Below, piece after piece: positions 12,194 to 43,877 of a DNA stretch of 64,000 nt. The notes beneath the pieces are model-generated. The model saw only the letters and a program-made list of their open reading frames with translations, was not told where the DNA came from and ran no database searches. This DNA is from Methyloligella sp. GL2 (GTDB lineage: Bacteria > Pseudomonadota > Alphaproteobacteria > Rhizobiales > Methyloligellaceae). Position 1 is the first letter of the stretch; each line of letters starts with the position of its first letter. The stretch spans positions 757,501-821,500 of the forward strand of contig NZ_CP054476.1 in assembly GCF_013341275.1 (NCBI RefSeq). The letters run 5' to 3'. Both the position numbers and the translations under genes were made by a program.

Positions 12194-12287
12194 GTGAGCG
12201 TTTATTCGGGGCGCGGCTGCGCGAACAGGACGGGTCGGGCCGGCGTGCATATGTGTCGGCAGACGAAATGCGCCGCCGGGCCGCGCC

Positions 12288-24973: not shown

Positions 24974-26248
24974 TTAGAACTCGGTCAGGCCGCGGGGATT
25001 GGCCGATGGAGCGGGTTTCGTCTCAGTGGGGCGGCCGCTCATCCAAGGCGGATAGATGAAGCGCTCGGTGTTGTAGGGCTCCGGCGCGATCATCGCCAAC
25101 GGCGCTCTGAAGTCGTGGATCTGGTAGAAGATATGCGGCATGCCCAGCGAGGGGTCGGGCGTCAGCACCGGATAGGGGACGACGGCCTGCCAATCGGGAT
25201 GATAGCGGATGGTGCCGTGCACGGTGCGGTAGATCATGCCTCTGAGGGCAAACGCCACTTTCCTGTTCTGCTCGAAATCGCCCGGCGCGCCGGAGCCGCC
25301 GGCCATCGCCGCGCCGACGGCGTAGTGATGCAGGTTGCTATAGGACTGGCAGCCGATGGTCGGCGTCGAGCCATCGCCGAACCTGGCCTTGTAGCGGGTC
25401 TCGAAGCGTTTCCCCATTTCGTCGCGGAGCAGGCCGATGATCGAGGAGACGATGACGCCGACGCTCGCCTCCTGGGCGATATCGGCGAAGGTCCGGTGGA
25501 CCGCGCCGTATTGCAGATAGACCAGGCAGTCCATCGGGTTTTCCACGAATTGGCGTTGGAAATGCGCCAGATCGCCGGCGTAGAAATGGGTGTTGGCGAA
25601 AACGGCCGGATCGGTCGCCCGGACCTCCTCGATGACGTCGCGCCACTGGCTGGTCGGGGTCTGCACGATCTTCGGCCCGAAGCAGACCTGCCATCCATAG
25701 CTGGCCGCGGCCTTGGCCATCGAGTTGGAGATCACGATGCTGTAGGGCGTCGATCCGGAGACGATGGCGATGCGGTTGGATTTCGGGGTCCATTGCCCGC
25801 TATCCCGGAGCCAGGAGAGGAATTTGATCAGGCCGGGGCCATACCAATAGTCGGCCGGATCGGCCATGAAACAGCCGAAATACCGGTCTGGATCGCTCAT
25901 CACCGTATCGTGGTGCTGGAGCAGCGTATTGGCGTGGACATAGATGATGCCGGCATCGGCGATCGGCTCGTATTCGGAGTTCTGCGCGCCGATATTGTAG
26001 CCGTTGACGATGGCGTGGACCTTGTGCTTCTCGATCAGGAGCCGGGCTGCGGAAACGACCTCCTTCGCGGTCTGCCGGCAGGTATCGACGAAGAAGGGTT
26101 TGATCGGGCGGCCGAGCAGCCCGCCGCGCGCGTTGAGCTCTTCGCAGGCCAGAATGATGCCGTTGCGGAACTCGGCGCCGTCGGCGGCCGAAGGTCCGGT
26201 AAGGGGCACCATGCTGCCGATGGGCACGAATTCGGAACTGTCGTCCAC
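24974..26248 (-). CDS. Amide/urea-type periplasmic-binding-fold protein without signal peptide (probable cytosolic sensor)
   Basis: The 424-residue protein matches the type I periplasmic-binding family of AmiC, UrtA and FmdD: VPIGSMVPLTGPSAADGAEFRNGIILACEELNARGGLLGRPI at the start, then the two lobes to about residue 370. It begins MDDSSEFVPIG, directly at the first strand, with no signal peptide or lipobox, so it should stay in the cytoplasm. AmiC of Pseudomonas is a precedent: a binding-protein fold used as an intracellular amide sensor. It is the last gene of the minus-strand operon response regulator - kinase - this protein (56-nt gap after the kinase). I infer that it feeds amide binding to the kinase. 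Confidence 0.82.
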   Translation of the reverse strand: MDDSSEFVPIGSMVPLTGPSAADGAEFRNGIILACEELNARGGLLGRPIKPFFVDTCRQTAKEVVSAARLLIEKHKVHAIVNGYNIGAQNSEYEPIADAGIIYVHANTLLQHHDTVMSDPDRYFGCFMADPADYWYGPGLIKFLSWLRDSGQWTPKSNRIAIVSGSTPYSIVISNSMAKAAASYGWQVCFGPKIVQTPTSQWRDVIEEVRATDPAVFANTHFYAGDLAHFQRQFVENPMDCLVYLQYGAVHRTFADIAQEASVGVIVSSIIGLLRDEMGKRFETRYKARFGDGSTPTIGCQSYSNLHHYAVGAAMAGGSGAPGDFEQNRKVAFALRGMIYRTVHGTIRYHPDWQAVVPYPVLTPDPSLGMPHIFYQIHDFRAPLAMIAPEPYNTERFIYPPWMSGRPTETKPAPSANPRGLTEF

Positions 26249-26304
26249 GTCGATTATCCCTCAGTTGAAAATGCGCGACCGGTGCTTCTGCCGCTGTGAC
26301 AGGC

Positions 26305-27867
26305 TCAAGGACCCATCGTCTGTTTTAGAAAGTCCGGCTCGAAGAGAAGATTGTGCATCAGCACCCGCAGGCGCGGCGGGCTGACCGGCTTGACCAGAAC
26401 CGGGATACCGGCCTTCTGGATGTTGCTGATCACCTTCGGCTCTGCGTCTGCGGTGACGACCATGGCGGGCATTTCAGGATCGTCGACGAGGTCGCGGACC
26501 GCTTCGATTGCCTCAAGGCCGGTTCGGGTCTGCAGATTGTAATCGGCGATGATCAGCTCCGGGGTGACCAATCCTTCCGAGACCAGCCGTATCGCCTCGT
26601 CCTTGTTGGGCGCGGGGTGCACGTCGATGCCCCAGCGGCGCAACAGCTGGGCCATGGATTCGCGCAAGATCTCGTCATCCTCGATGAGCAAGACCGGCGT
26701 TCCGGCGAATTCGCCGCCGACGGCTTCGCTGACATCGGCGGCGGGGCCGATATCGCTGTGCCAGATATTGCCGAGCGGCACCCAGACCGAGAAGATCGAT
26801 CCCTTGTCCGGCCGGGAGCGCACGCCGATCGGATGTTCGAGAAGGTCGGCCAGGCGTTTCACGATATTGAGGCCGAGGCCGAGCCCCTTCCTCTGCTTCC
26901 GGCTGTCGTCGGTGACGCGGTAGAACTCGTCGAAGACGCGGGTACAATCCTCTTCGCTAATGCCGCGGCCGGTATCGACCACCTCGATGCGCAAGCCCCG
27001 CCCCTCTTTTCGGCAGCCGACAAGCACGCCGCCAACTTCGGTGAAGCGGATGGCGTTGGCGACGAAATTGCTCAGGATCCGCTCCAGCAGCGCGCGGTCG
27101 GTCGACACCGTCTTATGGGGGGTGACGAATCTGAGGTCGATCCCCTTCTCCTGGGCCTGATGATCGAATTGTATCTGGATGCGCTCGAACAGCTCCGAAA
27201 GCTGGAACGAGGTGATGCGCGGCTGAATCCGGCCGGCATCGAGCTGGCCGATCTGCAAAAGTGCGCCGAGGAGGTCCTCCATGATGGAGGCGGACACGCC
27301 CATGGCATGGAGAATTTCGCGACGCTGCTCCTCATCCTGCTCCTGCAGGCAGTTGTAGATCAGGATCTTCAGCGAGGCGAGCGGTTGGCGCAGGTCGTGA
27401 TTGGCAGCCCGCAGAAAGCGCGATTTGGCTTCGTCGGTGGCTTCCGCGGCTTCCTTGGCTTCGCGCAGCTCCCGCTCGTTGCGCTTGACTGCGGTGACGT
27501 CGGTGAAGGTGACCGCCATGCCGTCGGCGCGGGTTGGCCGCTGCGCGACATGCATGGTGTTGCCGGTCGCGAATTGGAAGTCGGAATCGCTGAGGGTCCC
27601 GAAGTCGCCGATCTTGTCGTGCGCCCATTGTTCGGGATCGCCGGGAACCACCCATTCTTGCGAATGGGCGACGGCCGCGACGTAATCCTCATAGCGCATG
27701 CCAAGAGAGACGGGCAGGGCGCAGCTGCGATGGAAGCCTTCGTTGATGTAGACGAGTTTGCGATCGGACGACCAGATCAGAATGCCTGTATCGAGGACGT
27801 CGAGTCCTTCCCAAACGGCGTCCAGCTCAGATTCGCCTTCCGCAGCCTGAGCCGGCGCGTCAGCCAT
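26305..27867 (-). CDS. Soluble hybrid histidine kinase (PAS-HisKA-HATPase-REC)
   Basis: The protein has no transmembrane segment. Domains in order: PAS-like (LDTGILIWSSDRKLVYINEGF, about 25-130), a short coiled coil, HisKA with phospho-acceptor His in ANHDLRQPL (about 155-165), HATPase with N-box NFVANAIRFTE, G1 VVDTGRGI and G2 GLGLGLNIV, and a C-terminal receiver with phospho-accepting Asp in LIIADYNLQTRTG and a conserved Lys in VLVKPVSPP. The ATG at 27867 overlaps the regulator stop by 8 nt, so they are co-translated. Because the kinase is cytosolic, it must read an internal signal, plausibly through the binding protein encoded next. Confidence 0.9.
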   Translation of the reverse strand: MADAPAQAAEGESELDAVWEGLDVLDTGILIWSSDRKLVYINEGFHRSCALPVSLGMRYEDYVAAVAHSQEWVVPGDPEQWAHDKIGDFGTLSDSDFQFATGNTMHVAQRPTRADGMAVTFTDVTAVKRNERELREAKEAAEATDEAKSRFLRAANHDLRQPLASLKILIYNCLQEQDEEQRREILHAMGVSASIMEDLLGALLQIGQLDAGRIQPRITSFQLSELFERIQIQFDHQAQEKGIDLRFVTPHKTVSTDRALLERILSNFVANAIRFTEVGGVLVGCRKEGRGLRIEVVDTGRGISEEDCTRVFDEFYRVTDDSRKQRKGLGLGLNIVKRLADLLEHPIGVRSRPDKGSIFSVWVPLGNIWHSDIGPAADVSEAVGGEFAGTPVLLIEDDEILRESMAQLLRRWGIDVHPAPNKDEAIRLVSEGLVTPELIIADYNLQTRTGLEAIEAVRDLVDDPEMPAMVVTADAEPKVISNIQKAGIPVLVKPVSPPRLRVLMHNLLFEPDFLKQTMGP

Positions 27868-28522
27868 TGGCAGCACTAGCGGCGCTGCCGAAATGCGTCA
27901 CAGCGTAGTGCACAGCGCTCGTCCGGTCGGGGAGGTTCAATTTCTTCATCGCGTTGCCGAGATGGATACGCACGGTCTGACTGCTGAGGCCGAGCTCTTC
28001 GGCGATATTCTTCACCGACGATCCGCTGCCGAGCAGAACCAGCACATCGCGCTCCCGGCTGGTGAGACTGCTTAAGTCTCGCTCTTCGGAAGTCGCATTC
28101 TTGGGGCGCTCCGCAGGCGCCGAAGAGCGCTCGATGATGCGGCGCGGGAAGGAGACTTCTCCGGCCAGCACGCGCTCCAGCGCCCGCACGATCTCGGGCC
28201 CGGCGGCCGATTTCGGGATATAGCCGATGGCGCCTTGCTCGACCGACCGGATGACGTGCTCGACATCTTCATGCACCGAGACGACCACCACCGGAATGTT
28301 GGGGTACTTCGCCCGAAGCGCATGCAGGCCGCCGAGCTCCTCCGAACCGGGCATGACGAGGTCCAGCAAGATCAAGCTGGTGTCGGGGTGCTCCGCCAGG
28401 AGCTCCATAAGCTCGCCGAAACTCTCGGCTTCGTAAATCTCAAGCTCCTGCTCCAGCCTGCGCATAATCTGCTTGAGAGACTGTCGGACCACCCAATGGT
28501 CGTCTCCGATAATGACCTTCAT
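27860..28522 (-). CDS. NarL/FixJ (LuxR-type) response regulator
   Basis: Residues 1-120 are a receiver domain with acidic pair GDDH, phospho-accepting Asp in LILLDLVMPG and Lys in GYIPKSA. Residues 150-210 are a LuxR helix-turn-helix: LTSRERDVLVLLGSGSSVKNIAEELGLSSQTVRIHLGNAMKKL. It is the first gene of the regulator-kinase-binding protein operon. Its most likely target is the divergent amide transporter promoter 0.4 kb away, where a CTAGA-N7-TCTAG palindrome lies; the same palindrome precedes the porin gene at 39.4 kb. The DNA-site link is inference. Confidence 0.9.
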   Translation of the reverse strand: MKVIIGDDHWVVRQSLKQIMRRLEQELEIYEAESFGELMELLAEHPDTSLILLDLVMPGSEELGGLHALRAKYPNIPVVVVSVHEDVEHVIRSVEQGAIGYIPKSAAGPEIVRALERVLAGEVSFPRRIIERSSAPAERPKNATSEERDLSSLTSRERDVLVLLGSGSSVKNIAEELGLSSQTVRIHLGNAMKKLNLPDRTSAVHYAVTHFGSAASAANG

Positions 28523-29015
28523 TCTGGAACGTTAGCTCCCTTCGCGTCGGCAGCGCGTGCGTCTAGAAGTGCCATGCCGGCGCGGCTGATTGATTCTCTA
28601 TATCCGCTGGGGGATTTCGTTCACATATGGTCATAGTTCGTGACCGATTCCAAGCAGGAGGAATGATAAATAACATCTTTTAGTTGCACGAAAGATGCTG
28701 GGCCACCCCGCTCTAGAGGATCTGCTGCGCGCTCTCGGGCTGCCGGATCGTCAGGTGGATCGTTAACAGATCCTTTCTAAGTCGCTCATTTGCCCGATAA
28801 ATTTGCGCAATGCACGTGAAAAAAACGCCAAGCGCACACGCTTTCGGCATTTGCGGCACTCTCCGATAAAAATTTTCGGCTGGCGCAGAAAAGGCATTGA
28901 CGGCCTCCCTGCAATTCGCTCAAGTGTCTAGACGTTAATTCTAGTTCACTCACCGAATATCTAGCGTTGTGTGTCTAAGAGGCATGCGCGCTTCGCCATC
29001 AGGGGGATCGTATCA
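28523..29015. other. Long divergent regulatory region
   Basis: This 490-nt gap separates the two-component operon from the amide transporter. No gene was found in it. It contains five CTAG tetramers (28563, 28713, 28928, 28941 and 28961); the last three are clustered 55-90 nt before the transporter start and include the palindrome listed separately. A weak TTGACG hexamer lies at about 28898. The large size suggests control from a distance. Confidence 0.55.
28928..28944. promoter_or_regulatory. CTAGA-N7-TCTAG palindrome upstream of amide transporter
   Basis: The 17-bp element CTAGA-CGTTAAT-TCTAG is repeated in form at 39359-39375 before the TorF porin gene. A further CTAG follows at 28961. 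It ends 71 nt before the transporter start codon. Candidate binding site of the LuxR-type regulator encoded at 27860-28522. Confidence 0.6.
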
Positions 29016-30323
29016 ATGGACTTTACCCGCCGAAAACTCCTCAAGACGACGCTCGCTGCTTCTGCCGCATTTTCAGCGCCGCATCTCTGGCTCCCGGCTT
29101 CGAAGGAAGCCTGGGGCGCGACGGTGAAGAAGGGCGAGCCGATCAAGGTCGGGCTTCTCTTCTCGCTTACCGGCGCGCTCGCCGTACCGGAGGAAGACTC
29201 CACGCTGGTGCTGCAATACGCCTTCGACGAGATCAACAAGAACGGCGGCATCAACGGCGTGCCGGTCGAGCCGGTGATCGTCGACGCCAAGTCGGACTTC
29301 AACGTCTACACCGAGAAGGCCAAGGAGCTGATCATCCGCGACAAGGTCATCGCGCTGTTCGGCTGCTACACCTCGGCGAGCCGCAAGGCGATCCTGCCGA
29401 CCGTGATGCAGCGCAATCATCTGCTCTACTACCCGACCTGCTACGAGGGCGCCGAGTGCACGCAGAACGCCATCTGCACCGGTCCGCTTGCCAATCAGCA
29501 TTCCAAGGACCTGATTCCCTTCATGGTGAAGAACTTCGGCAAGAAGGTCTTCTTCGTCGGGTCCAACTATGTCTGGCCGAAAGAGTCGAACAAGAACGCC
29601 AAGATCTGGCTGGAGGAGGCCGGCGGCGAGCTGCTCGGCGAAGAGTATGTCCCGCTCGGCAGCTCCGAGTTCGGTCCGGTGTTCAATAAGATCCGCGACA
29701 CCCAGCCGGACTTCATCTTCTCGACGGTCGTCGGCGCATCCGACATCGCCTTCCACAAGCAGTTCAAGCAGGAAGGCTTCAAGGTGGACAAGATGCCGAT
29801 CGCATCGCTCACCACGGGCGAGATCGAGACCCGCGCCATGGGGCCGGAATTCGGTGCCGGCCACTTCCTCTCCGCGCCTTACTTCCAGAGCCTCGACAAC
29901 CCGACCAACCACAAATTCGTCGAGGGCTTCCTGTCGAGCAAATACGGCAAGAACGGCGTGACCCACTACAACATGGAGGAGACCTATCTCTCCGCCTATG
30001 TGTTCAAATACGGCTTCGAGAAAGCCGTCGCGGCGGTCGGGGTCGAGAACGTCACGCCACGCATCATCCGCGATCATTCCGGCGGTGTCCGGGTGGAGGA
30101 CAATGTCTCGCCGGAAGGCTTGGTCTGGATCGACGAGGACAACTTCAACACCTGGCTGAAGCCGAAGATCGGTCAGTGCCAGGGCGATGGCACCTTCAAG
30201 GTTCTGAAGGCGTCCGAAGGCCAGGTCCAGCCGCTTCCCTTCTCGATCTATCCCGACTCGGGCACCTGCACCAAGGACGGGCTGAAGGCGCCTGACGGCA
30301 AGATCCGCACCAACGTCATCTGA
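29016..30323 (+). CDS. Urea/short-chain amide ABC transporter substrate-binding protein (UrtA/FmdD-like)
   Basis: The 435-residue precursor starts with a twin-arginine signal (FTRRKLLKTTLAASAAF), suggesting Tat export. The mature protein is a type I binding protein: IKVGLLFSLTGALAVPEEDSTLVLQYAFDEINKNGGINGVPV, then GCYTSASRKAILPTVMQRNHLLYYPTCYEG, a segment characteristic of UrtA/FmdD/AmiC-type proteins. The ATG at 29016 is preceded by aggggga. It opens a five-gene operon with two permeases and two ATPases leading directly to dimethylformamidase, so N-formyl or short amides are likelier ligands than urea. A strong hairpin follows the gene. Confidence 0.9.
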   Translation: MDFTRRKLLKTTLAASAAFSAPHLWLPASKEAWGATVKKGEPIKVGLLFSLTGALAVPEEDSTLVLQYAFDEINKNGGINGVPVEPVIVDAKSDFNVYTEKAKELIIRDKVIALFGCYTSASRKAILPTVMQRNHLLYYPTCYEGAECTQNAICTGPLANQHSKDLIPFMVKNFGKKVFFVGSNYVWPKESNKNAKIWLEEAGGELLGEEYVPLGSSEFGPVFNKIRDTQPDFIFSTVVGASDIAFHKQFKQEGFKVDKMPIASLTTGEIETRAMGPEFGAGHFLSAPYFQSLDNPTNHKFVEGFLSSKYGKNGVTHYNMEETYLSAYVFKYGFEKAVAAVGVENVTPRIIRDHSGGVRVEDNVSPEGLVWIDEDNFNTWLKPKIGQCQGDGTFKVLKASEGQVQPLPFSIYPDSGTCTKDGLKAPDGKIRTNVI

Positions 30324-30330
30324 CGCAAAA

Positions 30331-30364
30331 CCGGGCCCGCGTTGTCACGGTGGCGCGGGCCCGG
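30331..30364 (+). promoter_or_regulatory. Stem-loop between binding-protein and permease genes
   Basis: Perfect 11-bp arms ccgggcccgcg / cgcgggcccgg flank 12 nt. No T run follows. In ABC operons such a hairpin protects the upstream mRNA, giving more binding protein than permease; that role is inferred. Confidence 0.65.
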
Positions 30365-30461
30365 CTCCCGACTGAAACGAATTTGAAAAGTGCAAGGCGC
30401 GCCGTCGTTGCGGCGGGCGAAGGGCCGATTGCGGCTCCAAGCACGGGGGACCTTACGGATT

Positions 30462-31337
30462 ATGGATCTCGGGACGCTCGCGAACGCTCTCATCCTCGGC
30501 GTCAGCATTGCCAGCATCTGGCTTGTTGCGGCGCTGGGGCTGACGGTTATCTACGGCACTGCCGGCGTGATCAACATGGCGCATGGCGAGCTGATCATGC
30601 TCGGCGCCTACAGCACCTATATGCTGCAGGTCTATCTCGGCGTTCCCTATCTCATCTGTATCCCGGCCTCGTTCGTGATCGTGGCGCTGGTTGGGCTTCT
30701 GCTCGAGCGCGGGCTCATCCGCTATCTCTACAATCGGCCGCTCGACACACTGCTGGCCACCTGCGGCGTGTCGCTGGTGCTGATGCAGAGCGTGCGGCTG
30801 ATCTTCGGCAGCGATCCGAAATACATCTCCGTGCCGGAAATCTTCTCCAGCAATATCGCGCTCGGCTCGGTCTCCATCTCCACCTTCCGCGTCATCATCT
30901 TGGCGGTCACGGCGCTGCTGGTCTTCGGGCTGTGGTTCTTGTTCTACAAGACGCGCTTCGGCGTGCAGGTCCGCGCCGTGATGCAGAACAAGGAGATGGC
31001 CGCCTCGTTCGGCATCAATGCCGGCCGCGTCTACATGCTGACCTTCTCGCTCGGGGCGGGGCTTGCCGGCGTCGCCGGCTCGCTGTTCGGCGTGCTGGCC
31101 ATCGTGCTGCCGACCATGGGCGCGAGCTACGTGGTGCAGTCCTTCCTGATGGTGGTGGTCGGCGGCGGTTCGCTTGCCGGCAGCGTCGCGGCGAGTGCCG
31201 CGACCGGGGAGATGCAATCCGTGCTGGCATCGTTCACCAACGCCACCTTGGCCCGCTTCATCATCTTCGTGCTGATCGTCGTGTTCCTCCGCTTCCGGCC
31301 GCAAGGGCTGTTCGCGCAAGGCGGGGTGAGGCGATGA
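30462..31337 (+). CDS. Branched-chain/urea-type ABC transporter permease (UrtB-like)
   Basis: A 291-residue permease of the LivH/UrtB family with about eight helices. Diagnostic segments are IYGTAGVINMAHGELIMLGAY in the second and third helices, RAVMQNKEMAASFGINA (the coupling EAA-like loop) and VVGGGSLAGSV. The ATG at 30462 (RBS gggga) begins MDLGTLANALILG, directly at the first helix; an upstream in-frame start at 30390 would add basic residues. It forms the membrane channel with the next permease. Confidence 0.92.
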   Translation: MDLGTLANALILGVSIASIWLVAALGLTVIYGTAGVINMAHGELIMLGAYSTYMLQVYLGVPYLICIPASFVIVALVGLLLERGLIRYLYNRPLDTLLATCGVSLVLMQSVRLIFGSDPKYISVPEIFSSNIALGSVSISTFRVIILAVTALLVFGLWFLFYKTRFGVQVRAVMQNKEMAASFGINAGRVYMLTFSLGAGLAGVAGSLFGVLAIVLPTMGASYVVQSFLMVVVGGGSLAGSVAASAATGEMQSVLASFTNATLARFIIFVLIVVFLRFRPQGLFAQGGVRR

Positions 31338-31377
31338 GCGCGGTCAGCAAGCGGCAAGCGAAACGGGGCTGGTAATC

Positions 31378-32481
31378 ATGGGCAATATCTATCACGACAA
31401 GAAGCTGCAATGGCTCGCCTATGCGGTGTTCTTCGCCGCCATCGGTATCGTGCCGCTATTCGTCGGCGACGCCTTTCTGCTCAACCAGCTCGCGACCTAC
31501 GGCATCTACGCGATGTTGGCTCTGTCGATCAGCTTGTGCTGGGGCTTTGGCGGCATCCTCAATCTCGGCCAGGGCATTTCCTTCGGCCTTGGCGCCTACG
31601 GCATGGCGATGACCATGCAGATGCAGACCCAGACGGACTCCAACCCGATCCCGCCCTTCATGCTGAACAACAGCCTGGAGCATCTGCCGTGGTTCTGGGA
31701 GCCGTTCTCCAGCACGGCGGGCGGGCTGATCTTCGCGGTCGCGGTGCCGACATTCTTCTGCGCGGTGTTCGGCAGCATCATGTTCCGGGCGCGCGTCTCC
31801 GGTGTGTTCTTCACCATCATGACGCTGGCTATGCTGTCGGCATTCTACACCATCATCCTCGATCAGCAGGCCTATACCGGCGGTGCCAACGGCTTGACGC
31901 CGCCGGCCTCGCTGCAGATCGGCAGCTTCGAGATCGATCCCTATAGCGCCACCGCCTACTGGATCGTCTTCGCCCTTCTATGCGTTGCCACGGTGCTGGC
32001 GAAGCTCCTCACCCAGAGCTCGTTCGGGCTGGTGACCCAGGCGATCCGCGACGATGCCGAACGGGTGCGCTTCCTCGGCTATAACGTCGCCGGCTACGAG
32101 ACCGCGATCTACACCATCTCCGGCATGATCGCCGCCATCGCCGGCTGCTGCTGGGTGATGCTGGTGCAGTATGTGTCGCCGGCTCAGCTCGATGTCAGCC
32201 TCAGCCTTTCCATGGTGATCTGGGCGGCGATCGGCGGACGCAACTCGCTGCTCTGGGCGATGATCGGCGCCTTCCTCATCCAGGGCGGCCAGAGCTATCT
32301 CGGCGACCAGTTTCTTTCGACCTGGCTTCTGCTTCTCGGCGGCTTCTTCATCGTCGTGGTGCGGTTCCTGCCGAACGGCCTGGCAAGCCTCGCCGAGGCG
32401 GGGCTCGGCTGGCTGAGCGCACGGCTTCCGTCGAAGTCGGGCCGGGCCATCGAATCCGTGACGGCAGAGGAGGGGGCATAA
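31378..32481 (+). CDS. Branched-chain/urea-type ABC transporter permease (UrtC-like)
   Basis: A 367-residue LivM/UrtC-family permease with about ten helices. Family features are LALSISLCWGFGGILNLGQGISFGLGAYGMAM, the coupling loop FGLVTQAIRDDAERVRFLGYN and WAAIGGRNSLLWAMIGAFL. It is 40 nt after the first permease. The UrtC-like extension between helices 3 and 4 (residues about 82-115) is present, which separates it from ordinary LivM. The stop is 2 nt before the next ATPase start. Confidence 0.92.
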   Translation: MGNIYHDKKLQWLAYAVFFAAIGIVPLFVGDAFLLNQLATYGIYAMLALSISLCWGFGGILNLGQGISFGLGAYGMAMTMQMQTQTDSNPIPPFMLNNSLEHLPWFWEPFSSTAGGLIFAVAVPTFFCAVFGSIMFRARVSGVFFTIMTLAMLSAFYTIILDQQAYTGGANGLTPPASLQIGSFEIDPYSATAYWIVFALLCVATVLAKLLTQSSFGLVTQAIRDDAERVRFLGYNVAGYETAIYTISGMIAAIAGCCWVMLVQYVSPAQLDVSLSLSMVIWAAIGGRNSLLWAMIGAFLIQGGQSYLGDQFLSTWLLLLGGFFIVVVRFLPNGLASLAEAGLGWLSARLPSKSGRAIESVTAEEGA

Positions 32482-32483
32482 AG

Positions 32484-33233
32484 ATGTCGGGACTTCTCGA
32501 AATCCAGCATCTGTCGAAGAGCTTCGATACGGTCCAGGTGATCAACGACTTCAGCATGGAAGTCACCGAGGGCACGATCTGCTGCCTGGTCGGTCCCAAC
32601 GGCGCCGGCAAGACCACGACGATCGATCTGATCACCGGGCGGGTGAAGCCGACTTCGGGCAAGATCCTGTTCGCCGGCAACGACATCACCGGCCAGGACG
32701 AGCATGTCACGGCGCGAGCCGGGATCGGTCGCAAGTTCCAGGTGCCGGCCGTGCTGCGCGACATGACGGTGCGGCAAAATCTGGAGGTCGCCTATAGCCG
32801 GCAGACCAATCCCTTCACCAACCTGTTCACCTTTCACCCGAGCGGGCTGAAGCAGAAGTTCGACGAGATTGCGACGCTGGCCGGGCTGACGCACCGGCTC
32901 GAAGAGTTCGCGGGCAATCTCTCGCATGGCGAAACGCAATGGCTGGAGATCGGCATGGTGCTGATGCAGGAGCCGCGGCTCTTGCTGATGGACGAGCCGA
33001 TTGCCGGCATGACCGAAGCCGAGATCGAAAAGACCACCAGCATCTTCAAGGATCTGCGCAAGAGCGCGACGTTGGTCGTGGTGGAGCACGATATGGGCTT
33101 CGTGCGCGAGATCGCCGATGTGGTGACGGTGATGCATATGGGTTCGCTGCTGGCGCAAGGCGACATCGCCGCAATCGAAGCGGATGCGCGCGTGCGCGAC
33201 GTCTATCTCGGCGAGGAGGAGGAAGCGGCATGA
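32484..33233 (+). CDS. ABC transporter ATP-binding protein (UrtD-like)
   Basis: A 249-residue LivG/UrtD-type ATPase: Walker A GPNGAGKT, Q-loop in GIGRKFQVPAVL (the UrtD form), signature LSHGETQWLEIG in place of LSGG, Walker B LLLMDEP and a switch His in VVEHDMGFV. The signature LSHGE-Q-LEIG is typical of UrtD. The stop overlaps the start of the next ATPase (ATGA). Confidence 0.93.
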   Translation: MSGLLEIQHLSKSFDTVQVINDFSMEVTEGTICCLVGPNGAGKTTTIDLITGRVKPTSGKILFAGNDITGQDEHVTARAGIGRKFQVPAVLRDMTVRQNLEVAYSRQTNPFTNLFTFHPSGLKQKFDEIATLAGLTHRLEEFAGNLSHGETQWLEIGMVLMQEPRLLLMDEPIAGMTEAEIEKTTSIFKDLRKSATLVVVEHDMGFVREIADVVTVMHMGSLLAQGDIAAIEADARVRDVYLGEEEEAA

Positions 33234-33934
33234 GCGCGTTGCTGCAGCTGGAAAACGTCACGTCCTATTACGGCGCGACGCCGATCCTCAGGGACTTTTC
33301 CTTCGAGCTTAAGAAGGGGCAATGCGTCTGCGTGCTCGGCCGCAACGGCGTCGGCAAGACCACCTTGATGCGCACCATCATGGGGCTGACCGACAAATCG
33401 ACCGGCGCGATCACGATGGACGGCGCCGAGATCGGCAACAAGCCGACCTATGTGCGGGCGACTTACGGGCTCGGCTACGTGCCTCAGGGGCGCGGCATTC
33501 TTTCGGATTTCACGGTGCGCGAGAACATCCTGCTGGGCACCTTCGCGCGCAAGGATCACGCCGCCGGTATCCCGGAGCTTTGCCTGAAGATCTTTCCCTA
33601 TTTGCGGGAGAATCTCGACCGGCGCGCCGGGCTTCTTTCCGGCGGGCAGAAGCAGCAGCTCGCCGTGGCGCGCGCGCTCGCCGTCGATCCGCAAGTGTTG
33701 CTGCTGGACGAGCCGACCGAAGGCATCCAGCCCAACATCGTGCACGAGATCGGCGAGATCCTGCAGATGCTGAACAAGGAGCTCGGCATCAGCCTGATCC
33801 TGACCGAGCAGCATATCAAGGTCGCGCGCAAGCTCGGCGACGCCTTCGTCATGGTCGATAACGGCCGGGTGGTGGCAAGCGGGCCGATCGCGGAAATGAC
33901 CGACGAACTCGTCGAGCAACATATGACGATCTAA
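33230..33934 (+). CDS. ABC transporter ATP-binding protein (UrtE-like)
   Basis: A 234-residue LivF/UrtE-type ATPase: Walker A GRNGVGKT, GYVPQGRGIL, signature LSGGQKQQLAVA, Walker B VLLLDEPTEGIQP and switch His in LTEQHIKV. The PTEGIQP wording is usual for UrtE. It is the last transporter gene; dimethylformamidase small subunit follows after 87 nt, so the uptake genes and the enzyme may be co-transcribed. Confidence 0.93.
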   Translation: MSALLQLENVTSYYGATPILRDFSFELKKGQCVCVLGRNGVGKTTLMRTIMGLTDKSTGAITMDGAEIGNKPTYVRATYGLGYVPQGRGILSDFTVRENILLGTFARKDHAAGIPELCLKIFPYLRENLDRRAGLLSGGQKQQLAVARALAVDPQVLLLDEPTEGIQPNIVHEIGEILQMLNKELGISLILTEQHIKVARKLGDAFVMVDNGRVVASGPIAEMTDELVEQHMTI

Positions 33935-34021
33935 CGGTTTGGGAACGATAGTCGGCGCCCCCATCCGCGGCGCGCCGAACGATCGAGTGAGGAAGTGAAT
34001 CAGCAACCAACGGAGCGAAAC

Positions 34022-34462
34022 ATGATTCCAATTCCGAAGAAGGGCACGCCGGAGCGTGAGGAACTCATTCGGCTGCACAGGGAGTGCGTCGACTCCATGA
34101 AGGGCGTCGCTGGGTTCTCGGTGCTGAAATGCGAGACGCCGGGCGACACCACCGTGGTGACTGGCGGCGTGCACGAGTATCCGACGCTCCGCCGGGTCCT
34201 GATGCGCATGCGCGGCGAGTCGCCGGCGGGCAAGCTCATCACCATCTGCACCAAGGTGGACAAGGAATGGCGCATCGGCCGCCTGTCGGGCATCCGCGGC
34301 GTGCCGCCGGAGTTCGTCAACGACAAGGTCTACACCGATGAGCAGGAGATCCAGCACGACATCTTCCTGATGCGCCTGGACGAGCTGCCGGAGACGGCGG
34401 GCATGCCGGAGAATTTCGAAGAAGGCTGGAAGCACCGCGACGACAACTGGCCGGTGACCTGA
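34022..34462 (+). CDS. dmfA1: N,N-dimethylformamidase, small (alpha) subunit
   Basis: A 146-residue protein that I recognise as the small subunit of N,N-dimethylformamidase by its size, the internal WRIGRLSGIRGVPPEFVNDKVYTDEQEIQHDIFLMRLDELP stretch and its position directly before the large subunit. The holoenzyme hydrolyses dimethylformamide to formate and dimethylamine; the small subunit has no catalytic metal. The ATG at 34022 has cggagcg upstream; a GTG at 33995 is a weaker alternative. It is slightly longer than the roughly 132-residue subunit described in Alcaligenes. It lies between the transporter and the large-subunit gene. Confidence 0.85.
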   Translation: MIPIPKKGTPEREELIRLHRECVDSMKGVAGFSVLKCETPGDTTVVTGGVHEYPTLRRVLMRMRGESPAGKLITICTKVDKEWRIGRLSGIRGVPPEFVNDKVYTDEQEIQHDIFLMRLDELPETAGMPENFEEGWKHRDDNWPVT

Positions 34463-34596: not shown

Positions 34597-36999
34597 ATGT
34601 GTGCCATGAGGCTGACCGGATACGCCGATAAGTTCGGCGTTCACCCCGGCGAGAAGATCAAGTTCTACGTCAATTGCGACGGCCCTTCGGAGTTCAAGGC
34701 CGAGGTCGTGCAGATGATCCACGGCGACACCAATCCGCGCGGGCCCGGCTATATCGAGCGGCCGATGGATACGGCGGCGAACGGCGTCTACAAGGGCCGC
34801 AAGCAGATCATTCACAGCGGCTCCTACGGCTTTGTCGAGGATGCGCCGCAGTTCCACGTCGACAGCTTCACGCTGCAGTGCTGGATCTGGCCGACCACGC
34901 CGAAGACCCATCCGCGCTATTGGAAGCACGGCGCGCAAGGGCTGGTGACCAAATGGATGGACGGCAAGGGCTATGGCCTCTTCATCAACGAAGAGGGCTG
35001 CGTCGAGCTGCGCATCAACGAGCACAAGATCAGCACCGGCGTGCCGATCCGCGATCATGCCTGGCACTTCATCGCCGCCAGCTTCGATGCGGAGACCGGC
35101 GAGGTGGTGCTGTATCACGAGCCGCAGATCGTCTATGCGCTGGATCCGGTGATCGAGCCGGTGAAGACCACGGTGGACACCACCATTGCCCATACCGCCG
35201 CACCGACGGCGCTCGGCGCTTATGTGGAGAAGATCGACGGCAACGATGCGCTGGCCCAGTCTTCGCTGCCGGCCGGCGTCTGGTTTGCCGGCAAGTATAA
35301 CGGCAAGATCGACAGCCCGCGCATCTGCAACAAAGCCCTCAACCGGTTCGAGATCGAGCAGATGAAGGGCGGTGCCCAGCCCGGCCTGACCGAGCGGCGC
35401 AATTCCGGTCCGACCGGCGCGCTGTCGGAGGTGATCGTTGCGGCCTGGGATTTCTGGGACGGCATCGACACCATCGCCGCCAAGGATAACGGCCCGTATG
35501 GCTTCGACGCGCAGCTGGTCAATTGCCCGACCCGCGCGCTGACCGGCTACAATTGGTCCGGCCAGAATTTCGACTGGAAGTTCGCCACCAAGGAATACGG
35601 CGCCATCCACTTCCATGACGACGATGTCGACAATGCCCGCTGGCAGGTCGACGTCGAATGGGATGTGCCGGCAGAAGGCATCAAGAGCCGCTTCTACGCG
35701 CTGAAGCTCACCACCGAAGACGGCGATGAGGACTACATTCCGTTCTGGGTGGTGCCGGAGATCGGCAAGGAGCAATCGAAGATCGCGGTGATGGTGCCGA
35801 CCATCAGCTACATGGCCTATGCCAACGAGCATGTGGCGTGTAACGCGGGCGGCGCGGAGCTGTTTGTCTACCGCGTGCCGATCATGCAGCAGCAGAACAT
35901 GTTCCTGGCCGAGCACCGGGAATATGGCGGCTCGATCTACGACACGCATACCGACGGCTCGGGCATCTGCCTGTCCTCGCGTCTGCGTCCGATCCTCAGC
36001 ATCCGGCCGAAATACGATCACTTCCTGGCGCAGGCGCCGTGGCAGTATCCCGCCGACCTCCACCTGATCTATTGGCTGGAGACGATGGGCTACGAATACG
36101 ACGTCATCACCGATGAGGACGTGACCTATGAAGGCCTGGCCCGGCTGGAGAACTACAACGTCATCATCACCGGCTCGCATCCGGAGCATAATTCCGGCAC
36201 CCAGCTCGACGCTCTGCACAACTACACGCAGCGCGGCGGACGCCTGATGTATATGGGCGCGGATGCCTGGTACTGGGTGCATTCCTACCACCCGGCCTAC
36301 GAGTCCGAAGGGCGCGGTGTGCTCACCGAGATGCGGCGCTGCGAATCCGGCATCCGCACTTGGCGCGCAGAGCCTGGCGAGTATTACCACCAGGGCACCG
36401 GTGAGCTCGGCGGCATGTGGCGCTTCCGCGGCCGCTCGCTCTACTCGGTCGCCGGTGTGGGCATGACCAATGAAGGCTTCGACGTCTCGACCTATTACAG
36501 CCGGACGCCGGATAGTCTCGACCCGCGGGTCGCCTGGGCCTTCGAGGGTATCGATTATGACGAGCCGATCGGCAATTTCGGCCTGGTGGGCGGCGGCTGC
36601 GCCGGCCTGGAGCTCGATATCGTCGACGTCACGCTGGGCTCGCCGCCGCACACGCTTGCGGTTGCGACCTCGGCCGGCCGCCATACCGAAGCCTATCTGT
36701 TGGTGATGGAAGATTTCGGCTTCAACCAGCAGGGCTTGGACGGCACCACCCATCCGCGTGTGCGTGGCGACATCGCCTTCCACGAGACGCCGAATGGCGG
36801 CGGTTGCTTCGCCTTCTCGTCGATCGCGTTCTGCGGCTCGCTTCCCTGGAACGAGGGCAAGAACAACGTCTCGACCCTGGTGGGCAATGTGCTCGACCGC
36901 TTCATGCAGGACGGCCCGCTGCCGGCGGCGCCGGCCGAGGCGATCAAGCATCGCGGACGGGCGGATTACGACACGCCGGAGCCTGCCACGCAGGCCTAA
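34597..36999 (+). CDS. dmfA2: N,N-dimethylformamidase, large (beta) subunit
   Basis: The 800-residue protein matches the dimethylformamidase large subunit: an N-terminal beta domain (TGYADKFGVHPGEKIKFYVNCDGP), a laminin-G/concanavalin-like domain (about 85-250, FTLQCWIWPTTPK... YGLFINEEG), and a C-terminal catalytic domain with a Rossmann-like core (NYNVIITGSHPEHNSG). The published structure reports a mononuclear iron bound by two Tyr and one Glu; by eye the candidates here are Tyr408 (SYMAY), Tyr448 (GGSIY) and Glu530 (SHPEH). It is about 40 residues longer than the described enzyme. It releases dimethylamine and formate, and sits downstream of an amide importer. Confidence 0.88.
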   Translation: MCAMRLTGYADKFGVHPGEKIKFYVNCDGPSEFKAEVVQMIHGDTNPRGPGYIERPMDTAANGVYKGRKQIIHSGSYGFVEDAPQFHVDSFTLQCWIWPTTPKTHPRYWKHGAQGLVTKWMDGKGYGLFINEEGCVELRINEHKISTGVPIRDHAWHFIAASFDAETGEVVLYHEPQIVYALDPVIEPVKTTVDTTIAHTAAPTALGAYVEKIDGNDALAQSSLPAGVWFAGKYNGKIDSPRICNKALNRFEIEQMKGGAQPGLTERRNSGPTGALSEVIVAAWDFWDGIDTIAAKDNGPYGFDAQLVNCPTRALTGYNWSGQNFDWKFATKEYGAIHFHDDDVDNARWQVDVEWDVPAEGIKSRFYALKLTTEDGDEDYIPFWVVPEIGKEQSKIAVMVPTISYMAYANEHVACNAGGAELFVYRVPIMQQQNMFLAEHREYGGSIYDTHTDGSGICLSSRLRPILSIRPKYDHFLAQAPWQYPADLHLIYWLETMGYEYDVITDEDVTYEGLARLENYNVIITGSHPEHNSGTQLDALHNYTQRGGRLMYMGADAWYWVHSYHPAYESEGRGVLTEMRRCESGIRTWRAEPGEYYHQGTGELGGMWRFRGRSLYSVAGVGMTNEGFDVSTYYSRTPDSLDPRVAWAFEGIDYDEPIGNFGLVGGGCAGLELDIVDVTLGSPPHTLAVATSAGRHTEAYLLVMEDFGFNQQGLDGTTHPRVRGDIAFHETPNGGGCFAFSSIAFCGSLPWNEGKNNVSTLVGNVLDRFMQDGPLPAAPAEAIKHRGRADYDTPEPATQA

Positions 37000-37164
37000 G
37001 GCTTAGGCGCATTTGTGGTGTCCGCGGGCTTGGCCGCGGGCACCTGCCCCTCCCAGCCGCAGCAAATGCGCCATGGTGCGGGCGGCCTTGCTTAAAGAGC
37101 CATCTAAGCAGCCGCCCGTGCCGCCGGGAGATCGAATGGAACTGTCAGACGAAGGGTTTGCTCG

Positions 37165-38259
37165 ATGCTTCATCGCCCCGATTTCGGCTTTCAGGCGGAA
37201 GGCCACGACCTTTGCAGCGCGAGCTTTTACGCCGAGGCGCTTGACGGTCTCGGCGAGGCCAGCGTTTTACCGCCGGTGGTGTTCCGCTCGCTGCGCTTCA
37301 GCCTGCTCGAGGACGAGACGATCTGGACCCGCGACTGGGTCGCGATCGGTTGCGGCCACGAAATCCCGGGCGAAGGCGATCTGCTGCCTTTCACCGTCGG
37401 CAATCACGGCATTCATGTGCAGCGCGCCGGCTCCGGGCTGACCGGGCGCTTCAACAAGGCCCAGCATGGCGGCTGCCGCGCGATCCCGCTGCAATGCCAG
37501 ACCGGCAAGAAGACCAAATGCTCTTTCACTTCTTGCGGCTATAGCCGCGACCGCAGCGCGATCTCCGCCGGCGAGCTGGGCGATGCCACGCCGGCCATGG
37601 AGCAGTATCTCGGAGTCCAGCCGGAGCGGCTGCTTCCGGTTCATGCTGCGAGCCTCGGGCCGCTGATCTTCGTCAATCTCGATGTCGCGCCGGCGACAGA
37701 CGAACCGGCCTTTTCGGGTCTCGAACGCGCCGGCGGATTCTTCCAGACCAGCATGCAATGCATTGCCTCGGGCTGGCTGGAGTTCGCCGCCAACTGGAAG
37801 CTGCTCGGTCAGCATCTTTGCGACGGCAAGCCGGTCTCGGAAGACGAGGAGCAGGACTGGCTCCTCGCCGAAAGCTTCATTGCGGGCAAGCCGGCGGAGG
37901 TTGCTTGGTTGTTTCCCAATCTGGTTTTGATGCAGGCGGCGGGCGAGACCTGCGCCATCGTCCTGCAGCACACCGCGCTCGGCCAGACGCTCTGCCGCTA
38001 TTTCGTCTTCGGCGACGTGCGGGACGGAAGCTCGGCCTTCTGGACCGGCGAGATCGAGCGGCGCGCGGCCAAGGCGTGTGCCGACCACCAGGAGACGGTG
38101 CGCTGGGGCACCAATTTCCGCTCCGAGACGATCGGCGCTCCGCTTCCGCGGCAGTCCGATCCGCTTGGGCTTTGGATGCAGCGCATGGTGGCGCGCCGGG
38201 TCATGCAGACGCCGAGCGCGCCATTCTCCCAACCGCTTTATCAGCACGCCAGAGGTTGA
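37165..38259 (+). CDS. Rieske oxygenase-like protein lacking Rieske and iron ligands
   Basis: The 364-residue protein follows the Rieske non-haem oxygenase alpha-subunit pattern: WVAIGCGHEIPGEGDLLPF, GIHVQRAGSGLTGRFN, then LLPVHAASLGPLIFVNLD and NWKLLGQHLCDG. Ligands are missing. C-x-H-R-G is replaced by A-Q-H101-G-G-C104, and C-P-Y-H-G-W by F-T-S-C124-G-Y. Instead four Cys occur as C104-x6-C111-x7-C119-x4-C124. The His-x4-His iron site that should follow NWK (residues 210-212) is also gone. The frame is intact and codon use is like its neighbours, so it is not a pseudogene. It starts 165 nt after dmfA2. Function unknown; it may be a metal-binding or scaffold partner of dimethylformamidase. 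Confidence 0.7.
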   Translation: MLHRPDFGFQAEGHDLCSASFYAEALDGLGEASVLPPVVFRSLRFSLLEDETIWTRDWVAIGCGHEIPGEGDLLPFTVGNHGIHVQRAGSGLTGRFNKAQHGGCRAIPLQCQTGKKTKCSFTSCGYSRDRSAISAGELGDATPAMEQYLGVQPERLLPVHAASLGPLIFVNLDVAPATDEPAFSGLERAGGFFQTSMQCIASGWLEFAANWKLLGQHLCDGKPVSEDEEQDWLLAESFIAGKPAEVAWLFPNLVLMQAAGETCAIVLQHTALGQTLCRYFVFGDVRDGSSAFWTGEIERRAAKACADHQETVRWGTNFRSETIGAPLPRQSDPLGLWMQRMVARRVMQTPSAPFSQPLYQHARG

Positions 38260-38264
38260 CCGAA

Positions 38265-38963
38265 ATGCTCTCACTCAATCTGAAGATCGACGAGAATTCC
38301 GCGCTAGCCGGCGCCGTCCGCGCCTATGAGAAGGGCGCGTTCGAGACCGCGTTTGCCTTGTTCTCCGGGCTTGCCGAAGGAGGCGATGCAGACGCCAAGG
38401 CCTGGCTTGCGGCGATGTACGCCAATGGCGACGGGGTGGAGACCTCGCTGGCGAAGGCGCGCGCGCTGTACCGCGAAGCCGCCGAGGCCGGGAACGTTCT
38501 GGCGCAGACCAATCTCGGCGCCATGCTGGCCATGGGGCAGGGAGGAACGGCGGACGAAGCCGAAGGCGCGCGCTGGCTGACCCGGGCCGCCGAGCAGGGC
38601 GATCTCTTCGCGCAATATAATCTGGCGACGCTTCTTTCCAAAGGAGACGGCATTGCCGCCGATCCGGAGTGCGCCGCCAAATGGTATCGGGCGGCGGCGG
38701 AGGCCGGGCATTACCCGTCTCAAGCGCGGCTCGGCTATCTCTACACGAACGGGATCGGGGTGGAGAAGGACCGGGTCGAAGCCTTCGTCTGGCTTTCGCT
38801 CGCCGCTCAACACGGCGTCGGCACGGCGCTGAATGCGCTGGAGGCCATCGTCTCGCAGATGTCGGCCGAGGAAAAGGGCCGCGGCGCGGAGCTGGTCGCG
38901 GCCTGGCGGTCGCGCACGTCGGAGATTTCCCGTCATGCCCGCCTGCAGCCGGATCCGGCATGA
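38265..38963 (+). CDS. Sel1-repeat (TPR-like) protein
   Basis: A 232-residue protein without signal peptide. It contains about five Sel1-like repeats with the pattern A-x2-G-x4-A-x2-L-G-x-(L/M)-Y: DADAKAWLAAMYANGDGVE, NVLAQTNLGAMLAMGQGG, DLFAQYNLATLLSKGDGI and HYPSQARLGYLYTNGIGVEK. Such repeats act as protein-interaction scaffolds. The ATG at 38265 lies 5 nt after the Rieske-like stop and the stop overlaps the next start, so the three genes are co-translated. Its place in the dimethylformamidase operon suggests an assembly role, which is inference. Confidence 0.8.
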   Translation: MLSLNLKIDENSALAGAVRAYEKGAFETAFALFSGLAEGGDADAKAWLAAMYANGDGVETSLAKARALYREAAEAGNVLAQTNLGAMLAMGQGGTADEAEGARWLTRAAEQGDLFAQYNLATLLSKGDGIAADPECAAKWYRAAAEAGHYPSQARLGYLYTNGIGVEKDRVEAFVWLSLAAQHGVGTALNALEAIVSQMSAEEKGRGAELVAAWRSRTSEISRHARLQPDPA

Positions 38964-40573: not shown

Positions 40574-41629
40574 ATGAAGGGCGAACCCAAGCTGCGGATG
40601 CCGGAAAACTGGACGCCGCCGGTTCCCTCCTACAGTTCACGCGTCGTGCCGGAGGAGGGCCATCTGGTCATCCTCTATCTGGGGGCGCAGGCTCGGTCAC
40701 AAGACGTCTCTCGCGCCGCATTCTTAGAGATTTCCAGCTTTTTCGACGATGTGGACGACAGCCCGTATTGGCTGGATCGGGCCGCCTATTGCTCCGCCTC
40801 CGGGTATTGGGAGCACATCGTCATCGCTTATTTCGTGAGCGTCGAAGCCTTCGAGGCCTGGGTCACGGCGAGCGGGTTCGGAACTTGGTGGGCGGACAGC
40901 GCCCGGCTGAGCCAGGATGCCGGTCTCTGGCAGGAGCGCCTGGTGCTCTCGGGCGATCGTATCGAAGCGCTTCATTCTTCTCCTAATAAGGATGCGCATT
41001 CCCATGGCGGCGAGATCGTCGGTCCGATCCGGCATCATGCGTATTGGGGCGGCATGCGCGACCGGCTCCAGGTATCCCGCCACGATCACCTCGAAAGCGC
41101 GGTGACGGGGTATCCCGAACGGGGGGAGGTGGAGTCATACGGCCGGCGCGTCGTCGTGCCGGTGCCGCAGAACCTCGCGATAATCCGTTCGGGTCAGGAC
41201 AGGCGGTTCGCATCTGTCGAAGAGCGTGCGCTTTACGACGAGATCGTGCGCGGCAATCTGCTCAAAGGCATGGCGTATCTGGAAGAGCGTGGCAGCGAAG
41301 TCGGGTGCTTTGCCTGCCGGTACGTCACCGAAATCGACGCATCCGGCCAAGAGACGGACCGCAATTTCGGCCATTGTCTGTTTCGCAGCCTCGAAGACCT
41401 GGAGAATTGGGCGAAATCGCATCCGACCCATCTGGCCATATTCGGCAGCTTCTTTGAGCTTCAGAAGCGCTGCGACAACGATATGACGCTGCGCTTCTAC
41501 CACGAGGTCGGGGTCACCCCCGCATCGGGACTGCATTTCGAATACGTCAATTGCCATCCCGAAACCGGGCTTCTGGGATATTTTTGCCCCGGAGGCCGTC
41601 ACGCATTTTTCCAAAAGCCAGGAGCATGA
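40574..41629 (+). CDS. oxd: Aldoxime dehydratase (phenylacetaldoxime dehydratase family)
   Basis: A 351-residue haem lyase that dehydrates aldoximes to nitriles. Aligned with characterised Oxd proteins it has [10 protein letters not shown] (conserved active-site Arg), LAIIRSGQD (active-site Ser), NFGHC with the haem-ligand His at residue 267, SHPTH at 282-286 with the distal catalytic His, and the terminal [13 protein letters not shown]. All key residues are present. The start follows ggagtgggcg. The nitrilase gene begins 4 nt after the stop, so the pair forms the aldoxime-nitrile pathway: aldoxime to nitrile to acid plus ammonia. Confidence 0.9.
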
Positions 41630-41633
41630 GTGC

Positions 41634-42677
41634 ATGAAGAAGATCAAGGCGGCGGCGGTACAGGCGGCCCCGGTTTTTCTCGATCTGAACGGGTCGATCG
41701 ATAAGGCAGAGAAATATGTCGAGGAGGCTGCGGCGAACGGGGCGGATCTCGTCGCCTTTCCGGAAACCTGGCTTCCAGGCTTCCCGTTCTTTATCTGGTT
41801 GGGAACGCCGCGGGAAAGTCTCGCTTATTTCCCGCGCTATCACGCCAACAGCATGGAAGTGAATTCGCCGGAGATGCGCCGGCTGCAATCGATCGCGGCC
41901 AAAAACAAGGTCACGCTCGTCATGGGCTTTTCCGAGCGCGATGGCGGGAGCCGGTATATGGCCCAGGTGATCATCGGACCCGATGGCGAAATCCTTCTGA
42001 CCCGGCGTAAGCTTAAACCCACCCATGTGGAGCGGACCATCTTCGGAGAAGGCGACGGCTCCGATCTTCGAGTCGTGGATGCCGAATTTGGGCGTTTGGG
42101 CGCCCTCAATTGCTGGGAACACGTACAGCCGTTGATGAAGATGGCGATGTATGCCCAGCATGAGGAAGTGCATGTCGCCGGCTGGCCGAGCCTTTGCGTC
42201 GGACGCGACGTCGCTTATGCCTTGGGCCCGGAAGTGAACAATGCGGCCAGCCAGATTTATGCGGTCGAGGGCGGGTGCTACGTGCTTGCTCCCTGTGCCG
42301 TCGTCTCTCAGGAGATGTTCGACATCATGTGCGACACGCCGGAAAAAGCCCACGTGCTCAATCCGTATGGCAGCAAGCCGGGCGGCGGTTTCACCATGAT
42401 TTACGGTCCGGATGGCCGTGAGATGTGCGACCCGTTGCCGGAAGACCAGGAAGGCATTCTGTACGCTGATCTCGATCCCGAAACGCTTATTCTCGCCAAG
42501 GCGGCCGCCGATCCGGTCGGTCATTATGCGCGCGCCGATGCGGTTAGGCTTGTCGTCAATCGCAAGAAGCGCGTCGTGATGGAGGAGATCGATAACGAGG
42601 ATCGTCGTGCAAAGCCTGCCGGGAGCGGGCAGCAAGACGATGGCGAAGAAGATATCGTCGAATTCAGCGTCCAGTAG
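41634..42677 (+). CDS. Nitrilase
   Basis: A 347-residue nitrilase with the full catalytic set: Glu in [13 protein letters not shown], Lys in [10 protein letters not shown] and Cys in [13 protein letters not shown]. The CWEH form and the length are those of true nitrilases rather than amidases, giving a carboxylic acid and ammonia. The last 30 residues ([20 protein letters not shown]) are charged and unstructured, typical of spiral nitrilase tails. The RBS ggag lies within the end of the oxd gene, 4 nt apart, so the two are translationally coupled. The substrate class (arylacetonitrile or aliphatic) is not fixed by sequence. Confidence 0.92.
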
Positions 42678-42872: not shown

Positions 42873-43877
42873 CTAAAGCGAATCCCGCCGCAGCGGCGTG
42901 GTGGAGCAATGGATTCCGCCGCCATTCTTATGCATGGCGGAATAGGGGATCGTCTTCCAGGTGACGCCGTGTTTGGCGAGCCGGTCGAGGGTGCGGTTGG
43001 AGGCGCCCTCGGGCATCAGAAGCCTGCCGGGCGCAACGGCCAGCCCGTTGACGATCCAAGGATCGTCGGCCGGGTCGATCTCGATCAGATGGATGCCGCG
43101 CGCCTTCAGCTCCTCCAGGAAGGAATAGGGTAGGCCGAACGGGTTCACCAAGGCGAGATCCTTGTCGACCATCAGGAAGGAGACGTCGATATGGATGTCG
43201 TATCCGGTGAGGTCGACGATCAGCAGGTCCACACCCTGGCGCTTCAGCACCTCGCCGACCTGCTCGGCGCCTTCCCGATTGACGCGGACGCCGACGCCGA
43301 TCGCCGCCGTCTTCTCGTCGATCCAGGTGAAGCTTCCGCCTTCCATGACGCCTGTGCCGGAGACGGTGCGCAGGATCGGAATGCCGATATTGGCGAGCGT
43401 CCGGGTGATGGGCAGCTCCTCGCCCCGGCGGATGCGCGCGCCCATACGGCAGACGATGGCGCCGCCCTTCACCATGATCAGCGGATCGCGCGTGTAGCAG
43501 AATTTGAGGCGGTTGCGCTCCACGCCCTCCACATGGAAGACCTCGATGCCTTCGTCCTTGAGGGCTTGGACCAGCCCGTCATGCTGGGCCTGCATCGCCG
43601 CAATGTCGGGGAGGGTGTCGCTCTGGAAATACCATCCGGTTTCGGGATCGCCGAAGGAGCCGATTTCGGGGATGCGCTTGTCGGCGCTGACGATCTCCAT
43701 CTCCGGGCCGGGGCGGTGCACCAGGATGCTCCTGATGCGTCCGACATCGTTGTCGATGCCCCAAAGATTGCCCCAATTCGCCAGCTGTTCGCTCTCGTCC
43801 TCGAAGGGCGGCGAGGCGGGGGCGGCAAATTTCTTGATGGTCTGGGTGTAGACCCAGTGAGGATTATTAGTCGTCAT
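42873..43877 (-). CDS. Arginine deiminase/DDAH-superfamily (amidinotransferase-fold) hydrolase
   Basis: A 334-residue member of the guanidine-modifying superfamily. It has FCYTRDPLIMVKGGAIVCRMGARIRRGEE (typical TRDP-x-RMG-R-x-E), MEGGSFTWID, the catalytic His in GYDIHIDVSFLMVD and the catalytic Cys in GGGIHCSTTPLRRD at the C-terminus. The pattern is closest to dimethylarginine dimethylaminohydrolases and deiminases acting on small guanidines. Dimethylarginine cleavage would release dimethylamine, the same product as dimethylformamidase nearby, but the substrate is not proven. It runs opposite to the nitrilase and in the same direction as the TetR gene upstream. Confidence 0.78.
   Translation of the reverse strand: MTTNNPHWVYTQTIKKFAAPASPPFEDESEQLANWGNLWGIDNDVGRIRSILVHRPGPEMEIVSADKRIPEIGSFGDPETGWYFQSDTLPDIAAMQAQHDGLVQALKDEGIEVFHVEGVERNRLKFCYTRDPLIMVKGGAIVCRMGARIRRGEELPITRTLANIGIPILRTVSGTGVMEGGSFTWIDEKTAAIGVGVRVNREGAEQVGEVLKRQGVDLLIVDLTGYDIHIDVSFLMVDKDLALVNPFGLPYSFLEELKARGIHLIEIDPADDPWIVNGLAVAPGRLLMPEGASNRTLDRLAKHGVTWKTIPYSAMHKNGGGIHCSTTPLRRDSL

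Follow-up and report, generated by a model that had tools for sequence, protein, structure and literature searches.

The enzyme family concerned here is represented by parDMFase (PDB 6lvb), the dimethylformamidase encoded by dmfA1A2 of plasmid pAMI2, in which the small subunit sits at the active-site entrance and the loss of Asn547 abolishes activity on dimethylformamide (DMF), the N547A variant being inactive (PMC7686228). Recombinant parDMFase obtained from E. coli equals the native enzyme in activity (PMC7686228). Paracoccus aminophilus cured of pAMI2 is unable to use DMF, and for the dmfA1A2 locus which this organism carries on pAMI5 no link to the use of DMF was found; the report in question noted dmfA1A2 alone and none of the adjoining genes (PMC4543880). 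Among Rieske proteins, the oxygenases CntA (carnitine monooxygenase) and GbcA (glycine betaine monooxygenase) are the nearest points of reference. PetA of Thermochromatium tepidum, an electron carrier of the bc1 complex which possesses all four ligands and is distant in sequence from the protein described below, offers a solved Rieske pocket whose ligands are C124, H126, C152 and H155, with C129 and S157 contacting the cluster site (PMC10492824). This pocket was found to hold a single zinc ion via its two cysteines (PMC10492824).

The window, i.e. the whole stretch of 64,000 nucleotides of Methyloligella sp. GL2 that was analysed, harbours genes of this amidohydrolase family followed by a gene for a remodelled Rieske-oxygenase-like protein, here designated RSK. 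The features in question are, in window coordinates:

24974 to 28522, minus strand: divergent regulatory module of an AmiC/UrtA-like sensor, a hybrid histidine kinase and a LuxR-type response regulator
28971 to 33934, plus strand: UrtABCDE-like ABC transporter of the urea/short-chain-amide type
33995 to 34462, plus strand: DmfA1-like small subunit, clade-specific insert with invariant C31 and C46; C85 is invariant as well
34597 to 36999, plus strand: DmfA2-like large subunit, retains Y408, Y448 and E530 as iron ligands; D556 and H531 clade-specific
37000 to 37164, plus strand: gap between dmfA2 and RSK, strong hairpin, no U-run
37165 to 38259, plus strand: RSK, remodelled Rieske-oxygenase-like protein of 364 residues (sequence, alignment, model, PDB matches)
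37405 to 37416, plus strand: H81-x2-H84 of RSK, invariant histidines on the strand preceding the tip and possible further ligands (alignment; also in pAMI5)
37447 to 37554, plus strand: rebuilt Rieske tip of RSK, residues 95 to 130, with H101, C104, C111, C119 and C124 invariant (alignment, ligand mapping)
38265 to 38963, plus strand: Sel1-repeat protein of 232 residues
38960 to 39283, plus strand: ORF107, a small conserved protein whose start overlaps the Sel1 stop

The gap of 5 nt between RSK and the Sel1 gene supports the co-translation of the two which the first-pass annotation had proposed, and the Sel1 gene in turn overlaps the next reading frame in an ATGA. A Sel1 gene is present in every RSK locus examined except that of pAMI5, and across homologous loci Sel1 and ORF107 follow RSK in either order; ORF107 was undetected in L018, whose contig ends there, and, on a first pass, in the short locus L071. 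ORF107 gives a confident alpha/beta model, for which neither a Pfam match nor a meaningful PHROGs match nor a PDB fold match was obtained. The Urt-like transporter lies upstream in most homologous loci. These loci belong to members of the alpha-, beta- and gammaproteobacteria, many of which are methylotrophs. In the window, the intergenic stretch of 165 nt that separates dmfA2 from RSK forms very stable hairpins (about -83 kcal/mol), and similarly stable gaps are present in most, not all, homologous loci; where present, such a hairpin could lower the expression of RSK relative to the enzyme. The pAMI5 locus (JCM7686_pAMI5p063-064) belongs to the same clade, with a DmfA2 which is 71% identical to that of the window, and shows the order dmfA1-dmfA2-RSK-ORF107-AmiS/UreI together with a divergent sensor module like that of the window. 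It differs from the window in that no Sel1 gene was found and an AmiS/UreI transporter is present. Neither among the conserved neighbours tracked nor among the genes annotated beside the pAMI5 RSK was a reductase or ferredoxin found; such partners may lie elsewhere in the genomes. No phage record matched, a viral structure search returned just weak matches to two unnamed proteins, and in the literature searched no paper on this gene set was found apart from the pAMI5 remark, nor any determination of metal content, complex formation or activity. Beside the conserved operon, and outside it, a gene for a haem aldoxime dehydratase is directly followed by one for a Nit6803-like nitrilase (40574 to 42677), an aldoxime-nitrile degradation pair, and near the operon lies on the minus strand (42873 to 43877) a gene for an enzyme of the amidinotransferase fold resembling arginine deiminase or dimethylargininase.

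As the first-pass annotation had stated, the RSK gene is intact, its start codon position and length agreeing with those of close homologues, and the protein is related over its whole length to the alpha subunits of Rieske oxygenases. PDB sequences of such subunits are matched at 8e-5 by phmmer and at 5.8e-14 by a profile of 50 family sequences. The AlphaFold model (mean pLDDT 87.8, pTM 0.90) finds its best Foldseek match over the whole chain in CntA (E 3.4e-15), with further Rieske oxygenases matching as well. The RSK of the window has no Pfam match at E 0.1, and its best NCBIfam model, glycine betaine monooxygenase GbcA, is reached at 1.2e-10, far under its cut-off; the homologue L041, however, exceeds the gathering score of Ring_hydroxyl_A (PF00848). 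Model, Foldseek matches and this Pfam score together reveal the alpha-subunit fold with both its Rieske and its catalytic domain. A search of the own genome for an RSK paralogue found none. The most divergent copy, that of pAMI5 (11872 to 12852 of locus L100), bears the misleading annotation "biphenyl 2,3-dioxygenase".

The ancestral metal sites have fared differently from what the first-pass annotation had assumed, namely that both were missing and a four-cysteine pattern had been gained. For ligand mapping, 16 members of the RSK family were aligned with 25 genuine oxygenases taken from related genomes, and a separate comparison was made with PDB chains. In all 16 the mononuclear-iron motif E-x2-Y-H-x4-H, which follows NWK, is absent, while NWK itself is kept. 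The Rieske motif C-x-H...C-x2-H, in contrast, reads A-x-H...C-x2-T. Since C119 aligns without gaps with the second Rieske cysteine and H101 with the first Rieske histidine, two of the four ligands are retained; the first cysteine is replaced by A99 (valine in pAMI5) and the second histidine by T122. Three of the four cysteines of the pattern C104-x6-C111-x7-C119-x4-C124, i.e. C104, C111 and C124, are thus new relative to Rieske oxygenases, and C119 is ancestral. With CntA and GbcA, RSK hence shares the whole-length fold, the positions of H101 and C119 and the NWK motif; it differs from them by the loss of two Rieske ligands and of the mononuclear-iron ligands, by three new invariant cysteines and by being tied to a hydrolase, with no reductase partner among its conserved neighbours. 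Another assignment, with C124 at the position of the second Rieske histidine and F121 at that of the second cysteine, was rejected as the ungapped alignments with the 25 oxygenases and the PDB chains put C119 at the cysteine position.

All four cysteines are invariant in the 74 rows of the RSK alignment (71 distinct proteins, lowest pairwise identity 31%) and in the pAMI5 copy, and so are H81, H84 and H101; a scatter of the cysteines among homologues, which would have spoken against a common site, was not seen. Judged from this alignment, the conservation of the four cysteines is far beyond chance. Residues 95 to 130 contain not a single gap in the 74 rows and are better conserved than any other part of RSK, with a mean column conservation of 90% compared to 32 to 69% in other regions. 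The former catalytic segment (residues 176 to 245) ranges among the lowest, at 32 to 40%, which suggests that the tip, and not oxygenase chemistry, carries the function of RSK. By motif spacing, C124, H126, C152 and H155 of PetA correspond to A99, H101, C119 and T122 of RSK, and C129 and S157 to C104 and C124. C104, C119, C124 and H101 are therefore expected to converge in space, as their equivalents in the solved Rieske protein all contact the cluster site. C111 sits on the connecting loop, and the model is weak at residues 101 to 150 (pLDDT about 60 to 74). The presence of H101 and C119 at old ligand positions indicates that the ancestral pocket was remodelled and that no fresh four-cysteine site arose.

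The genomic linkage of RSK is strict. All 73 homologues found by means of the RSK sequence itself, 69 of them from one scan of public genomes and four from whole-genome searches, lie directly downstream of dmfA1-dmfA2. Conversely, RSK adjoins every DmfA2 that is at least 71% identical to that of the window (100 loci, duplicates included), and each of the 25 genomes retrieved by a DmfA2 search at this level possesses it. It is absent from all 45 loci whose DmfA2 is at most 43% identical, genuine dimethylformamidases being among them, and in a whole-genome search of a sample of 385 genomes of the class it was found in five of 64 genomes bearing a DmfA2. In the DmfA2 tree, the RSK-bearing enzymes occupy one side of a single branch (SH-aLRT 100), indicating a single origin; the other side includes the pAMI2 dimethylformamidase and a DmfA2 relative on plasmid pLVM1 of Methylobacterium DM1. 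In everything searched, RSK occurs only, and always, beside this DmfA2 clade, which makes it probable that it is a private helper or an extra subunit of that enzyme. With identities to the window of 38 to 67% for RSK and of 71 to 91% for DmfA2, RSK evolves much faster than its partner. The genome of the window contains two further, adjacent DmfA2 paralogues (loci L144 and L147, C1:2732805-2737892), which are 36 to 37% identical and have no RSK beside them.

The partner DmfA2 is about 37% identical to genuine dimethylformamidases and belongs to the pAMI5 clade, so that the term dimethylformamidase operon, used in the first-pass annotation, holds as a family-level label and no further. Its two tyrosine and one glutamate iron ligands are invariant in 75 of 75 DmfA2 sequences of the clade and the same in both clades; the parDMFase ligands Y399, Y440 and E521 as well as H519 and E657 all have their equivalents in the RSK-linked enzymes. 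In contrast, the position of Asn547 of parDMFase is occupied by aspartate in 75 of 75 RSK-linked sequences and by asparagine in 40 of 43 others, and the residue following the glutamate ligand, Tyr522 in parDMFase, is histidine in all 75 and tyrosine in all 43 others. The DmfA1 insert (residues 31 to 56) with its invariant C31 and C46 is likewise confined to the clade, as it is absent from the small subunits of pAMI2 (parDMFase), DM1 and the other loci lacking RSK that were compared. DMF is probably not the substrate of the RSK-linked DmfA1-DmfA2: that the strain cured of pAMI2 fails on DMF and that the pAMI5 locus is unlinked to its use both suggest that the RSK operon does not serve DMF utilisation. 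From the relatives of the transporter and the sensor (Urt/AmiC-like, and AmiS/UreI at pAMI5), the substrate is probably a small compound of the amide or urea type that differs from DMF.

We consider it about an even chance (0.5) that RSK is a former Rieske oxygenase alpha subunit turned into a dedicated accessory protein of this one clade of DmfA1-DmfA2-type iron amidohydrolases, helping to assemble their metal centre. According to this proposal, the alpha subunit, its catalytic iron ligands lost, would have given up oxygenase chemistry, and the old Rieske pocket would offer a site for zinc, iron or an iron-sulphur cluster, formed by C104, C119, C124 and H101, perhaps with C111. Together with the Sel1 protein and ORF107, RSK may then load or assemble the metal centre of the enzyme, the surroundings of which differ in the RSK-linked clade by D556, H531 and the two-cysteine insert of the small subunit. 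A need for such a helper is not obvious, since parDMFase matures in E. coli and the iron ligands are identical in both clades. It also speaks against the proposal that some loci lack the hairpin gap from which a lower expression of RSK would be expected. A general dimethylformamidase maturation factor does not fit, given that the characterised enzyme works from E. coli and that no RSK lies beside pAMI2 dmfA1A2. The suggestion of the first-pass annotation that an oxygenase was repurposed, acquired a new metal site and aids its neighbour is plausible but unproven: the invariant cysteines and the obligate linkage to a DmfA clade speak for it, while the site is remodelled rather than new and the name dimethylformamidase fits the enzyme at family level.

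Second in rank, and less likely than the accessory role, is a permanent third subunit in which a structural metal site, e.g. zinc in place of the cluster, shapes the substrate channel or the oligomer; we regard this as a tentative alternative. NirD, a Rieske-fold subunit of nitrite reductase without cluster ligands, would be a precedent. The strict one-to-one pairing of RSK with this enzyme clade would suit such a subunit, as would the insert confined to the small subunits of the clade; in parDMFase the small subunit is located at the active-site entrance (PMC7686228). The much faster evolution of RSK compared to DmfA2 and the stable-hairpin gaps which part the two genes in most loci are, however, more like an accessory protein than a stoichiometric subunit. 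Both readings draw on linkage, conservation and homology. More speculative, and in our view rather doubtful, is a role of the tip as a donor which passes a metal or cluster to the cysteine insert of DmfA1, where a second metal site would arise and with it a new substrate range.

It is improbable that RSK carries a redox-active or oxygen-sensitive [2Fe-2S] cluster, ligated by four cysteines or by three cysteines and one histidine, and acts as an electron carrier or sensor. The four cysteines and at least one histidine are indeed invariant in an ancestral [2Fe-2S] pocket, but the partner enzyme belongs to a hydrolytic family and neither a reductase nor a ferredoxin is found among the conserved neighbours. 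We have still less confidence in RSK having remained an enzyme which converts the same substrate by means of a new catalytic metal bound at the rebuilt tip: H81, H84, H101 and the four cysteines could form a catalytic site, yet conservation is poor in the region of the ancestral substrate pocket (0.32 to 0.40) and an electron donor gene is lacking among the conserved neighbours. That RSK is a decaying, functionless pseudo-oxygenase, as the loss of ligands at both ancestral metal sites might suggest, is scarcely credible in view of 38 invariant positions in the 50-sequence alignment, of intact reading frames in all 73 relatives and of the fact that alpha-, beta- and gammaproteobacteria alike have strictly kept it together with one enzyme clade.

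The labels given to these proteins in public databases, ring-hydroxylating dioxygenase for RSK and dimethylformamidase for its partner, are probably both wrong or too specific. By the diagnostic residues, a widespread and as yet uncharacterised clade, common among methylotrophs, can be told apart from genuine DMF degraders. If confirmed, the accessory role would make RSK a case in which a hydrolase has recruited the scaffold of a Rieske oxygenase as its accessory metalloprotein.
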